Notes under the pieces: generated by a model | Seen by the model: the letters and a program-made list of their open reading frames with translations, nothing else | What the model was told of the DNA's origin: nothing | Databases searched by the model: none | In this document: in pieces, positions 17,456-57,915 of the stretch | Layout: every line of letters begins with the position of its first letter | Position numbering within the stretch: the stretch's first letter is position 1 | NCBI RefSeq assembly: GCF_009858175.1 | Contig: NZ_CP047393.1 | Location: 992,001 to 1,056,000 of the forward strand | Reading direction: 5' to 3' | Length of the DNA stretch: 64,000 bases | DNA from: Pontibacillus sp. HMF3514 | GTDB taxonomy: Bacteria; Bacillota; Bacilli; Bacillales; BH030062 | Program-made: the position numbers and the translations under genes

Positions 17456-17560
17456 CTCTATCCGAAATTATAAGGTCCCTATCCAGAATTAAAACGAGTC
17501 TATCCAGAATCAAGTCGTCCCTATCCAGAATTAAAACGCGTCTATCCAGAATCATAGACT
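17456..17560 (+). repeat. 21-nt tandem repeat, five units
   Basis: Five adjacent 21-base units of the form CCCTATCCAGAATTAAAACGA; alternate units differ (TTAAAACG versus TCAAGTCGT), suggesting a 42-base super-period. The array lies between the fabI terminator and cotO and has no gene signal. A half unit (CTGGATCCAG) follows. Confidence 0.85.
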
Positions 17561-17757
17561 CTGGATCCAGTGTCTGTCTTAGAGATGGCATCACAATCCA
17601 TAATCAAGCCCCCTCAGCCCCCAGTCAGTGTGTCATATCCTAAACGTACTTACTGATATAATAACTCTCGATTATAAAAGCCTTCTAAATCATCTATGAA
17701 AGCTTTGAGAATGAGCCCTTACCATTACATTTTGTGCAAGAATTTTTAAAAATGGGC

Positions 17758-18462: not shown

Positions 18463-18603
18463 GTCTAATTAAATTTTCCCGTTTGAACAAAATAGTTATT
18501 GGGTATAAATGCTTATGAAAATTATTTTTTGTATGTTTTTGTCGAAATCATTGGTATTAAGTCCTATTTATATTATACTAATTAACATAGAAATGTGAAT
18601 ATA

Positions 18604-18688
18604 CTGACAAAGGCAAACTTATTGATAAGATAAGGACGCAAAGCCACGGGCCTAAGGAGCAATCTATGGTAGCCGGGTTACCGAAGAA
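18604..18688 (+). ncRNA. Cyclic di-GMP-I riboswitch (GEMM-I)
   Basis: Aptamer with the conserved GEMM-I pieces in order: GGCAAAC (about 18612), GACGCAAAGCC (18635), ACGGGCCTAAGG, TATGGTAGCCGGGTTACCG. The GCAAAGCC and GCCGGGTT.CC elements form the c-di-GMP pocket between P1b and P2. A terminator follows 20 bases later, so c-di-GMP binding probably controls readthrough into the diguanylate cyclase gene. Confidence 0.93.
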
Positions 18689-18775: not shown

Positions 18776-19720
18776 GTGGAGTTGTTAGAGCTTAGTCTGA
18801 CATTGATCGGGTCAATGGCGGGATTAGTCGGTTTATATTACTTAGGTTGGGTCAAGATTAAAGAAAGGTTAACGAATGAGAAAAGAATCTATCAATTGGT
18901 GGAAAACTCAAAAGATATCATTTACATATGTGATGTTGAGCCTGAAATGAAGTTTCATTACTTAAGTCCTTCCATAGAACATATATTAGGGGGGAATATT
19001 GTTCAAAAAAGTTTTGAAAACCCATACATTATCTTTGAACGAATTCATCCAGAAGACTTTCCCATGTTGTACAAAAAAGTAACAGGTGACCTCGATTATA
19101 GTAAGCCTATTTTACAGCGATGGAAAGATGATTATGGGGAATTCCATTGGTTTGAGGAATACTGCACACCGATTTTTGAAAAAGGAATCATGACCGGAAT
19201 ACAGGGGATTATTCGTAATATTGATGATAAGGTGAAATTACAGAGGGAATTGGAATACAAGGCAAATCATGATTCATTAACAGGTGTTTATAATCGAGAT
19301 TATTTCGAGCGAATGATGAAACAGTTTGATCAGAAAGAAGATCGTTCGGTTGGTATCATCCTTTGTGATATGGATGACCTAAAATTAATCAATGATCAAT
19401 ATGGTCATAAAAAAGGGGATGAAGTGATCAAAGTTATCGGTCAACTGTTAGATCAATTTTCTTCGCCGTATGTTACAGTGACAAGAATTGGTGGAGATGA
19501 GTTTGCTATTTTTATAGAAGGTAAGGAACAAGATGTGGATCGAATACGCCAACAAATTAATGAAACCTTTTATCAGTTTAACGAACAGAAAGAAACCATT
19601 AAGATTAATATGTCGATTGGCATGGCTCATGTCCCTTCATCTTTTTCTAACATGGAAATGCTATATGTGTTAGCTGACCAACATATGTATAAAATTAAGA
19701 ACGCTAGAAAATCAGTTTAA
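18776..19720 (+). CDS. Membrane-anchored PAS-GGDEF diguanylate cyclase
   Basis: Predicted to make c-di-GMP from two GTP (314 aa). One N-terminal helix (about residues 5-24) precedes a PAS domain (VENSKDIIYICDVEPEMKF...IIRNIDDKVKLQREL, about 40-160) and a GGDEF domain with DSLTGVYNRDYF, LCDMDDLKLINDQYGH and an intact RIGGDEFAIF near residue 239. The usual RxxD product-inhibition site upstream of GGDEF is absent. The start is GTG 18776 with AGGGAGGTAAGG upstream. The c-di-GMP riboswitch in front gives transcriptional feedback in place of the allosteric one. It is inserted between cotO and cotY/Z, unlike B. subtilis. Confidence 0.92.
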   Translation: MELLELSLTLIGSMAGLVGLYYLGWVKIKERLTNEKRIYQLVENSKDIIYICDVEPEMKFHYLSPSIEHILGGNIVQKSFENPYIIFERIHPEDFPMLYKKVTGDLDYSKPILQRWKDDYGEFHWFEEYCTPIFEKGIMTGIQGIIRNIDDKVKLQRELEYKANHDSLTGVYNRDYFERMMKQFDQKEDRSVGIILCDMDDLKLINDQYGHKKGDEVIKVIGQLLDQFSSPYVTVTRIGGDEFAIFIEGKEQDVDRIRQQINETFYQFNEQKETIKINMSIGMAHVPSSFSNMEMLYVLADQHMYKIKNARKSV

Positions 19721-36019: not shown

Positions 36020-36262
36020 GATAGTGTACTTGTGATGAAACTGGGTGAATAAGTGAGGAAGGAGAGCGGATTAGTGTTGAAGCTGGGTGAATAAGTGAGG
36101 AAGGAAAGCGGGTTAGTGTTGAAGTACAGTATATAAGTGAGGGAGGAGAGCAGATTAGTGTTGAAGTACAGTAGATAAGTGAGGAAAGAGAGTGGATTAG
36201 TGTTGAAGTACAGTATATAAGTGAGGAAAGAAAGCAGATTAGTAGTGAAGTTCATCAAATAA
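36020..36262 (+). repeat. 42-nt tandem repeat (2 x 21), about 5.5 units
   Basis: Units of the form GATTAGTGTTGAAGTACAGT followed by ATATAAGTGAGGAAAGAGAGCA. Each 42-mer divides into two 21-mers (GTGAGGAAAGAGAGCAGATTA and GTGTTGAAGTACAGTATATAA) that share about 12 of 21 positions. Sits between the TRAP terminator and the symporter gene. No coding evidence. Confidence 0.85.
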
Positions 36263-36467
36263 GAAGGTGTATCTAGAACTTCAATTTACCAATCTCCTCT
36301 TGGATGCAAAGGATATTAATGTGAACCCCACCGCATTCTTCCTAGTATTGAAAACGCTATTAAGATAGAAAATTCCGAATAACGCTCATGACCTTCACAA
36401 ATCCTTTTTCAGGGGCTATACTATATCCATCAATAAAGAACAGTTGTTCATATGAGGAGGACAAAAC

Positions 36468-48200: not shown

Positions 48201-48205
48201 TATGG

Positions 48206-48238
48206 AGAACAGCAGCTTTCGGGTTGCTGTTCTTTTTT
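48206..48238 (+). terminator. Terminator of the ABC operon
   Basis: AGAACAGCAGC / GGTTGCTGTTCT hairpin followed by T6. Confidence 0.88.
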
Positions 48239-48249
48239 AAGGAAAATGA

Positions 48250-48447
48250 TATACTAGAAAAAAGTGAATATAACACTGCCTGATGGTGACTTTTGAATAA
48301 AGTTGAAAAGGGAAGCTGGTGCGAATCCAGCGCGGTCCCGCCACTGTAATGACGAGATCTGTCTTGATTACCACTGTTTAAATGAAACGGGAAGGGAAGA
48401 CGGATCTATGACTCAAAGCCAGGAGACCTGCCATGAGGAAGAACATC
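48250..48447 (+). ncRNA. Adenosylcobalamin riboswitch with its own -10 box
   Basis: The B12 element core is clear: GGGAAGCTGGTGCGAATCC, then AGCGCGGTCCCGCCACTGTA, and the B12 box AGCCAGGAGACCTGCC (48417-48432), in canonical order and spacing, followed by a candidate kissing-loop partner. A TATACT -10 (48250-48255) just upstream suggests independent initiation, though no good -35 is seen. The next gene encodes an acyl-CoA thioesterase, not a known B12-regulated function. Confidence 0.93.
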
Positions 48448-48486
48448 ATTTCCTACGGGAGATAGGAGGGTGTTACGTTAATCGTG

Positions 48487-48560
48487 TACTCATGAACCAT
48501 GAGTGTATTTCGTGATGAATGTAACCTAAGCATCTTCTCTTTGGAGGAGGTGCTTTTTTT
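48487..48560 (+). terminator. Expression platform of the cobalamin riboswitch
   Basis: A first hairpin ACTCATG-AAC-CATGAGT (48488-48504), then AAGCATCTTCT / AGGAGGTGCTT (48528-48554) followed by seven T. The T-run ends about 13 bases before the thioesterase RBS AAGGAGG, as expected for a transcription-attenuation switch. Confidence 0.85.
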
Positions 48561-48587
48561 AGTGGACTAGGATAAGGAGGATAATGA

Positions 48588-49058
48588 ATGGAAACCAGAA
48601 CGTGTGCACATTCCAAAACTGTTCAAACAAGGTTGGTATTACCGCCTGATACCAATCATTTAGACTCTATTTTTGGCGGCAAAATTTTAGCCTATATCGA
48701 TGAGATTGCGGCACTGACAGCAATGAAGCATTCGAACAGTGCCGTCGTAACCGCATCTATTGATTCAGTAGATTTTTTATCTTCTGCAAAAGTAGGGGAT
48801 TCCCTCACGTCAGAAGCATTTGTTACCTATACCGGAAAAAGTTCGATGGAGGTATATGTTAGAGTGACAGCTCATAACTTGTTGGAAAATGAGCAAACAC
48901 TTACAACTGAATCTTTTTTGACTATGGTGGCAGTTGATGAGAATGGAAAGCCAAAACCTGTGCCGAGTGTTGTACCTGAAACAAATGAAGAAAAACGTTT
49001 ATTTGAAACAGCCCCAGATCGAAAAGAAAATCGAAAGAAGCGGGCAATGATTAGGTAG
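48588..49058 (+). CDS. Acyl-CoA thioesterase (hotdog fold, YkhA-like)
   Basis: 156-aa cytosolic thioesterase hydrolysing acyl-CoA. The hotdog signature is VLPPDTNHLDSIFGGKILAYIDEIAALTAMKHS (about 18-50; catalytic Asn/Asp region), then VDFLSSAKVGDSLTSEAFVTYTGKSSMEV. The C-terminal tail is basic. AAGGAGG eight bases before ATG 48588 fixes the start. It lies directly behind the terminator of a cobalamin riboswitch with nothing between, so its transcription is probably B12-responsive. It is followed by trhO after 185 bases. Confidence 0.88.
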   Translation: METRTCAHSKTVQTRLVLPPDTNHLDSIFGGKILAYIDEIAALTAMKHSNSAVVTASIDSVDFLSSAKVGDSLTSEAFVTYTGKSSMEVYVRVTAHNLLENEQTLTTESFLTMVAVDENGKPKPVPSVVPETNEEKRLFETAPDRKENRKKRAMIR

Positions 49059-50268: not shown

Positions 50269-50270
50269 TG

Positions 50271-50698
50271 GAAAGAGAATTCCACGCCCAGGAAGGAGAA
50301 TCCCACGCCCAGGAAGGATAATCCCACGCCCGGGAGGGAGAATCCCACGCCCGGGAGGGAGAATCCCACGCCCGGGAGGGAGAATTCCACGCCCAGGAAG
50401 GAGAATCCCACGCCCGGGAGGGAGAATTCCACGCCCAGGAAGGAGAATCCCACGCCCAGAAAGGAGAATCCCACGCCCGGGAAAGAGAATCCCATGCCCA
50501 GGAAGGAGAATCCCACGCTCAAGAAGGAGAATCCCACGCCTGGGAAGGAGAATCCCAAGCTAAGGAAGGAGAATCCCACGCCCAGGAAGGAGAATCCCAC
50601 GCCCGGGAGGGAGAATCCCACGCCCGGGAAAGAGAATCCTACGCTCAGGAAGGAGAATCCCACGCTCAAGAAGGAGAATCCCCCGCTCAAAAAAAGAG
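50271..50698 (+). repeat. 21-nt tandem repeat, about 20 units
   Basis: Units GAGAATCCCACGCCCAGGAAG with variants (CGGGAGG, CGGGAAA, CTCAAGAAG). Because 21 is a multiple of 3, all frames stay open and produce spurious heptapeptide ORFs on both strands. The array fills the space between the trhO terminator and the abgT terminator. Confidence 0.93.
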
Positions 50699-57685: not shown

Positions 57686-57915
57686 GCACCGCCCGCAAAG
57701 GAGGGAGCACCGCCCGAAAAGGAGGGAGCACTGCCCGAAAAGGAGGGAGCACCGCCCGAAAAAGAGAGAGCTCCGCCCGCAAAGGAGGGAGCACCGCCCG
57801 AAAAAGAGAGAGCTCCGCCCGCAAAGGAGGGAGCACCGCCCGAAAAGGAGGGAGCTCCGCCCGCAAAGGAGGGAGCTCCGCCCGAAAAGGAGAGAGCTCC
57901 GCCCACAAAGAGAGA
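57686..57915 (+). repeat. 21-nt tandem repeat, about 11 units
   Basis: Units GCACCGCCCGAAAAGGAGGGA with variants (GCTCCGCCCGC, AAAGAGAGA). It lies between the divergent cluster promoter and trhO copy 2. Long ORFs on both strands here are heptapeptide repeats caused by the period of 21 and are not considered genes. Confidence 0.93.

Follow-up and report, generated by a model that had tools for sequence, protein, structure and literature searches.

A cobalamin riboswitch directly upstream of an acyl-CoA thioesterase gene in Pontibacillus sp. HMF3514 and in many other Bacillales

Layout of the locus and the encoded thioesterase

The window analysed here is a stretch of 64,000 nucleotides from Pontibacillus sp. 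HMF3514 (contig NZ_CP047393.1, positions 992,001 to 1,056,000). Between an SsuA-type ABC-transporter operon and trhO, it carries a cobalamin riboswitch followed by a gene for a predicted acyl-CoA thioesterase (hereafter TE). The features of this locus are the following, in window coordinates:

48205-48238, + strand: intrinsic terminator at the end of the preceding ABC-transporter operon, a 13-pair hairpin (-18.6 kcal/mol) followed by T6
48247-48255, + strand: putative TG-extended -10 (TGA TATACT), read from the sequence
48267-48449, + strand: cobalamin riboswitch aptamer (RF00174), 120.9 bits, E 8.4e-30
48334-48347, + strand: GGTCCCGCCACTGT motif of the aptamer, read in the window sequence
48336-48340, + strand: L5 loop stretch TCCCG, five bases exactly complementary to L13
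48417-48432, + strand: B12 box AGCCAGGAGACCTGCC, read in the sequence, within the Rfam match
48452-48466, + strand: P13 hairpin CCTACGGGAGATAGG with loop L13 (CGGGA), kissing partner of L5
48528-48560, + strand: intrinsic terminator of the expression platform, 12 pairs and a T-run, about -16 kcal/mol
48588-49058, + strand: acyl-CoA thioesterase (4HBT, YciA/ACOT TE6 type), predicted regulated gene; Pfam 4HBT 5.6e-18, PDB 1vpm 249 bits

The match to the Rfam model is full-length (model positions 1-189 of 189) and far above the cut-off of 31.5 bits; on the strength of this score and of the conservation in relatives described below, a chance match was rejected. Both motifs from which a reading of the sequence alone (the sequence-only reading) had recognised a B12 element lie inside it. 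The -10 that this reading had also assigned to the element is readable in the sequence but absent from the output of a sigma-70 consensus scan, so the promoter is a putative one, read from the sequence. Its terminator before the TE gene is present as described, with a different spacing: 27 nt, containing the ribosome-binding site, separate the end of the T-run from the TE ATG, an interval with hardly any space for a further promoter.

The two neighbouring transcription units were considered as the real target of the switch and rejected. The terminator at 48205-48238 separates the upstream SsuA-type operon from the switch and, as read from the sequence, insulates the one from the other. As for trhO downstream, the TE strand showed no TrhO-like frame, nor any SsuA-like one, at the best 80 loci of the named-genome scan presented below. 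Both neighbours are retained around a solo switch-TE unit in a genome of the same genus (G002).

TE is a 156-aa hot-dog protein matching PF03061 (4HBT) with 65.5 bits against a cut-off of 20.6, and its closest solved structure by sequence is PDB 1vpm, aligned over query residues 7-156, so that the label of acyl-CoA thioesterase first given to the gene is upheld. TE did not reach the NCBIfam YciA equivalog cut-off (56.5 vs 162 bits), which places it in the same superfamily and not in YciA proper. Almost all of the listed relatives with a solved structure bear the name of acyl-CoA hydrolase or thioesterase. Asp44 is described as catalytic in Haemophilus influenzae YciA (PMC2698920), and Phe35 of the same protein (PMC10560148) gives a landmark for the spacing of this residue. 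The equivalent position, nine residues after the Phe of FGG, is D38 in the window TE and is an Asp in 182 of 182 TEs (loci among the matches listed); a switch-linked TE outside these 182 (L133) has a His.

The protein of 1vpm is a Bacillus halodurans acyl-CoA thioesterase of the TE6/ACOT type, crystallised with CoA (PMC10560148, PMC2698920). It shares the catalytic Asp position with the window TE, and the Halalkalibacterium halodurans locus (L038) carries a switch, whereas B12 control and natural substrate are both unmentioned in the available portions of these two papers. YkhA of B. subtilis is by label the same kind of enzyme, and is described as a target of the RoxS sRNA (PMC10433868). "YkhA-like", applied below to a group of paralogous TEs, serves as a label only and does not reflect a comparison placing B. 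subtilis YkhA in that group.

Kissing loop, terminator and proposed switching

The L5-L13 kissing loop, a feature of the cobalamin riboswitch class, is completed outside the Rfam match. Its core was complementary in 72 of 73 switches, as CCCG/CGGG (n=60) or as CGCG/CGCG (n=12), both sides having changed together in the latter 12; the lone exception (L021) has kept CCCG and has no perfect L13 partner. Behind the B12 boxes examined, the P13 motif (at most 3 mismatches) was retrieved in 35 cases out of 51, and a hairpin of -9 kcal/mol or lower before a T-run likewise followed 35 of the 51 boxes of relatives. Such a hairpin was absent or merely weak behind 16 of 51, including those of Halobacillus, Salimicrobium and two Alkalibacillus loci; these relatives may use another expression platform, or the terminator search may have missed theirs.

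Cobalamin switches usually act by a choice between an antiterminator and a terminator. The fold predicted without the terminator 3' arm has the terminator 5' arm paired to the 3' side of P13, and in that predicted for the full leader the terminator forms. This antiterminator complementarity is weak by itself, as 50 of 500 shuffles were equally strong, and the L5-L13 covariation, as it appears from the sequences compared, is the stronger evidence for switching. By analogy with known cobalamin switches, bound adenosylcobalamin would stabilise the L5-L13 contact and free the terminator, stopping transcription; without adenosylcobalamin, the 3' side of P13 would pair with the terminator 5' arm and allow readthrough into TE. 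With ample coenzyme B12 the thioesterase would be off, and it would be made during B12 shortage. PMC8390425 describes switches of this class as turning expression down when cobalamin is abundant.

Linkage of the switch and the thioesterase among Bacillales

A TE search in 61 genomes repeatedly placed the best matches directly behind a cobalamin switch. Among the neighbourhoods examined, the switch-TE order was found in 12 genomes including that of the window, with continuation into nrdE-nrdF at three loci (L012, L014, L016), and a switch followed by metE and then TE at three others (L019, L020, L021), an extra gene standing between metE and TE in L020. One TE of the same clade (L018) has no switch. 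The TEs of L020 and L021 fall outside the window TE clade on the tree, which suggests a separate recruitment behind switch-metE. At L019 (3095-4045), the TE behind metE is shortened (about 130 aa) and lies beside a transposase-like frame (named by eye). In the window genus, a high-identity TE is present in 2 of 8 genomes (the window strain and G002), and the unit is therefore patchy at short range; the identical solo arrangement in G002 speaks against a recent deletion of a metE or btu gene from between switch and TE in the window strain.

The named-genome scan was evaluated on its best 80 TE loci among the matches listed, upstream of which a model (R1) built from 16 switches was run. A switch was detected upstream on the same strand in 39 of these 80, standing directly before TE in 30 of them, in the order switch-metE-TE in 4, before metE and TE in one frame in 4, and in the order switch-nrdE-nrdF-TE in 1. 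The R1 scores of the direct cases ranged from 103.6 to 148.2 bits for 29 and reached 77.6 for the remaining one (L033). RF00174, applied to 12 of the 80 loci, agreed with R1, with a switch found in L027, L033, L057, L061 and L105 and none in the other 7. At four Cytobacillus-like loci (L044, L051, L057, L058), MetE and TE share one open frame behind the switch; these fusions measure 942 aa in L044 and 924 aa in L057, and that of L044 combines Meth_synt_1, Meth_synt_2 and 4HBT in one protein according to Pfam. Operons containing metE or nrdEF occur on several branches that split early in the TE tree.

Among the 41 unlinked loci of this set, 36 form one tree group, mostly from Lysinibacillus, Sporosarcina, Planococcus and Psychrobacillus. 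Five remain: L028, where neither a switch match nor metE is left before TE, L031, whose upstream sequence of 253 nt is too short for its missing switch to count, L064, L065 and L094. The paralogous, YkhA-like group of the first set has 2 linked rows out of 8 (L020 and L021), both through switch-metE.

An order-wide search covered 397 genomes, from which 80 TE loci were picked mostly by rank among the matches listed (rows of at least 60% identity left out of these 80 include G195, G244, G291, G292, G333 and G414). A switch was linked to TE in 58 of the 80, always upstream on the TE strand: 35 have the order switch-TE, 13 switch-TE-nrd, 4 switch-nrd-TE and 6 switch-metE-TE. Assigned to clades by best BLAST score rather than by tree, the linked loci amount to 58 of 65 window-clade TEs vs 0 of 15 paralog-type TEs. 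The idea that linkage is common to the thioesterase family at large was therefore rejected, though L020 and L021 were linked in the first set. With all sets combined (among the matches listed, and with some overlap of species between them), 112 linked loci represent 94 distinct TEs, for which the solo switch-TE unit is the commonest arrangement (58 of 94); the partners vary from TE alone to TE-nrdEF, nrdEF-TE, metE-TE, TE-nrdD and the MetE-TE fusion. A switch stood before TE in 39 of the best 80 named and 58 of the 80 order-wide loci, on which ground a promoter capture confined to the window strain was rejected.

An extra switch search was made in 17 chosen genomes, with loci seen for 30 of the matches listed. 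It revealed a second, linked TE copy in two cases in which the main copy is unlinked, as switch-TE-nrdE (L109) and as switch-TE-nrdD (L133). Two Lysinibacillus switch loci (L124, L125) precede MetE-like frames (named by eye), and in Bacillus sp. MUM 116 (G062; L120/L131) two cobalamin switches stand in tandem, about 300 nt apart, before one operon.

Searches of open-licence papers gave no account of a cobalamin switch controlling a thioesterase, supplementary files being outside their scope. The cobalamin riboswitch regulon of Priestia megaterium includes B12-independent isozymes (metE, nrdEF; PMC8390425), and "isozymes of B12-dependent enzymes" form a regulon category in PMC3766115, the main text of which contains the word "thioesterase" 0 times (supplements outside scope). 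As far as the available parts of these sources go, such regulons share with the present one the RNA family, and metE and nrdEF are also partners in the TE operons of relatives; they differ in that their targets are replacement isozymes, while the target here is a thioesterase.

B12-dependent enzymes and the possible role of the thioesterase

The 3.98-Mb window genome has three cobalamin switches: the one before TE, a second directly preceding nrdE-nrdF, which encodes a B12-independent ribonucleotide reductase, and a third before a gene pair that we take to encode an ECF-S-like transporter and a DUF4430-like protein. Two Lysinibacillus genomes (G087 and G091) have 12 and 14 of these riboswitches, respectively. 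The window genome also encodes the class II NrdJ and two PF01642 proteins of 559 aa and 1099 aa, a methylmalonyl-CoA mutase and, presumably, given its length, an IcmF-like mutase. Searches of this genome gave no match for MetE or EutB and, for MetH, weak partial matches alone (best E 4.1e-14, below the cut-off). When MetE and MetH types were sought in other linked genomes, G002, G028 and G033 resembled the window genome (G000) in having neither a MetE match nor an over-cut-off MetH match, so that none of the four showed a methionine synthase of the B12-linked kind; G028, which is used in the elimination argument, also has EutB. Judging by gene content, the acyl-CoA mutases are the only ones of the B12 enzymes tested (NrdJ, MetH, EutB and the PF01642 mutases) that lack a switch-controlled counterpart. 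Because the other switch targets cover MetH and NrdJ, TE is by elimination the candidate counterpart of these mutases.

In the order-wide sample, PF01642 was found in 337 of 397 genomes vs 73 of 73 linked genomes (the 73 read by eye from the table), an association with a Fisher value of 2.4e-6 that is uncorrected for relatedness or general B12 use. For the named set, the mutase search took in 50 of the best 80 loci and covered 49 genomes (L059 was left out); PF01642 was present in 47 of them, and the two lacking it are both Salibacterium with an unlinked TE. As Sinobaca has the mutase and nonetheless an unlinked TE, the Salibacterium-Sinobaca comparison is uninformative. The genomes searched for the unlinked 36-TE group, which is of Lysinibacillus/Sporosarcina type and belongs to the window TE clade, all have mutases. 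The mutase association is consistent with a mutase-relief role for TE and is not proof of it.

We consider TE highly likely to be part of the B12-shortage regulon in many Bacillales. Very probably, TE expression is tied to B12 status, because TE immediately follows an intact-looking switch and many genera have kept the two together. On this point the sequence-only reading stands; the reason it offered, an idle mutase, fits the 73 linked genomes of the order-wide sample, each with a PF01642 match, and is unproven. Within this regulon, metE would bypass MetH and nrdEF or nrdD would bypass NrdJ, and TE would be the counterpart for methylmalonyl-CoA mutase and IcmF, hydrolysing the short acyl-CoAs that pile up behind the cofactor-less mutases, so that coenzyme A is set free and the acid is released. 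Relief of the acyl-CoAs stranded when B12-dependent mutases stop is, by elimination, the most likely role of TE. Taken as a whole, an explanation in which a terminating cobalamin switch limits TE to B12 shortage and TE relieves the stalled mutases seems to us probable, with considerable room for doubt. More tentatively, and with the balance leaning slightly against it, TE could be a dedicated B12-shortage thioesterase of Bacillales acting as an acyl-CoA mutase bypass (for methylmalonyl-, propionyl- or branched acyl-CoA) that protects the CoA pool, in parallel with the acid excretion of human B12 deficiency, the MetE-TE fusion then being a two-function B12-shortage protein.

The reason for the B12 control of TE might instead lie outside the mutases, for example in general CoA or fatty-acid housekeeping during B12 stress, or in a non-CoA thioester connected with the supply of methionine or deoxynucleotides. 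The presence of TE in operons with metE, nrdEF and nrdD, its fusion to MetE in four loci and the unlinked copy kept by mutase-bearing Lysinibacillus- and Sporosarcina-type genomes all point in this direction. The four linked genomes that have neither MetE nor an over-cut-off MetH match, the predominance of the solo unit and the names of the solved relatives, nearly all acyl-CoA hydrolases or thioesterases, argue the other way, and we regard such a reason as rather unlikely. Less probable still is a hitch-hiking TE that happened to lie in an operon of the switch-metE or switch-nrd type and later lost its partners, leaving a link of little function. The early tree branches with metE or nrd operons, the patchiness of the unit in the window genus and the L028 TE, which retains neither switch match nor metE, would agree with such a history. 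It accords poorly with 58 solo units among 94 distinct linked TEs, with the scores of the direct switches (29 of 30 at 103.6 bits or above), with a kissing pair preserved in all switches but one and with the lack of linkage in the 15 paralog-type TEs of the order-wide set. The sequence-only reading had envisaged the loss of a metE- or btu-type gene: a recent accident is disfavoured by the frequency of solo units, and the metE and nrdEF operons of relatives, several of them on early branches, agree with an older version of this idea, so that some solo switch-TE copies may derive from operons that shed metE or nrdEF.

A leader of about 300 nt, terminated at high B12, would be expected at this locus, and the same reading had proposed such a stand-alone regulated RNA as an alternative product. 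That the switch is decayed, or is mainly the source of this RNA with incidental control of TE, appears very improbable, since the TE gene is what persists behind the switch across genera; the aptamer, the L5-L13 pair and the terminator are moreover all intact in the window. The linkage extends one of the best-known riboswitch regulons by a conserved target of a kind new to it, a hydrolysing rather than a replacing enzyme. It also gives a directly testable answer to the fate of acyl-CoAs once B12-dependent mutases stop, and provides a physiological context for the protein of PDB entry 1vpm. A switch-linked TE would, if the bypass holds true, mark genomes burdened by mutase substrates under B12 limitation.

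Elsewhere in the window, a 21-nt G+C-rich unit, GGAAGGAGAATCCCACGCCCA, is repeated in tandem about 20 times at 50270-50686, between trhO and the next gene; the corresponding position of the same-genus genome (L007 3660-4256) holds another repetitive reading frame. Further arrays with a 21/42-nt period lie at 36048-36263, 57686-57910 and 17457-17570, so that repeats of 21-nt period may form a family in the window genome. A c-di-GMP-I riboswitch was found at 18602-18685 on the + strand (78.2 bits), and a PAS-GGDEF-like protein (18776-19720; domain names by eye) is encoded directly after it.
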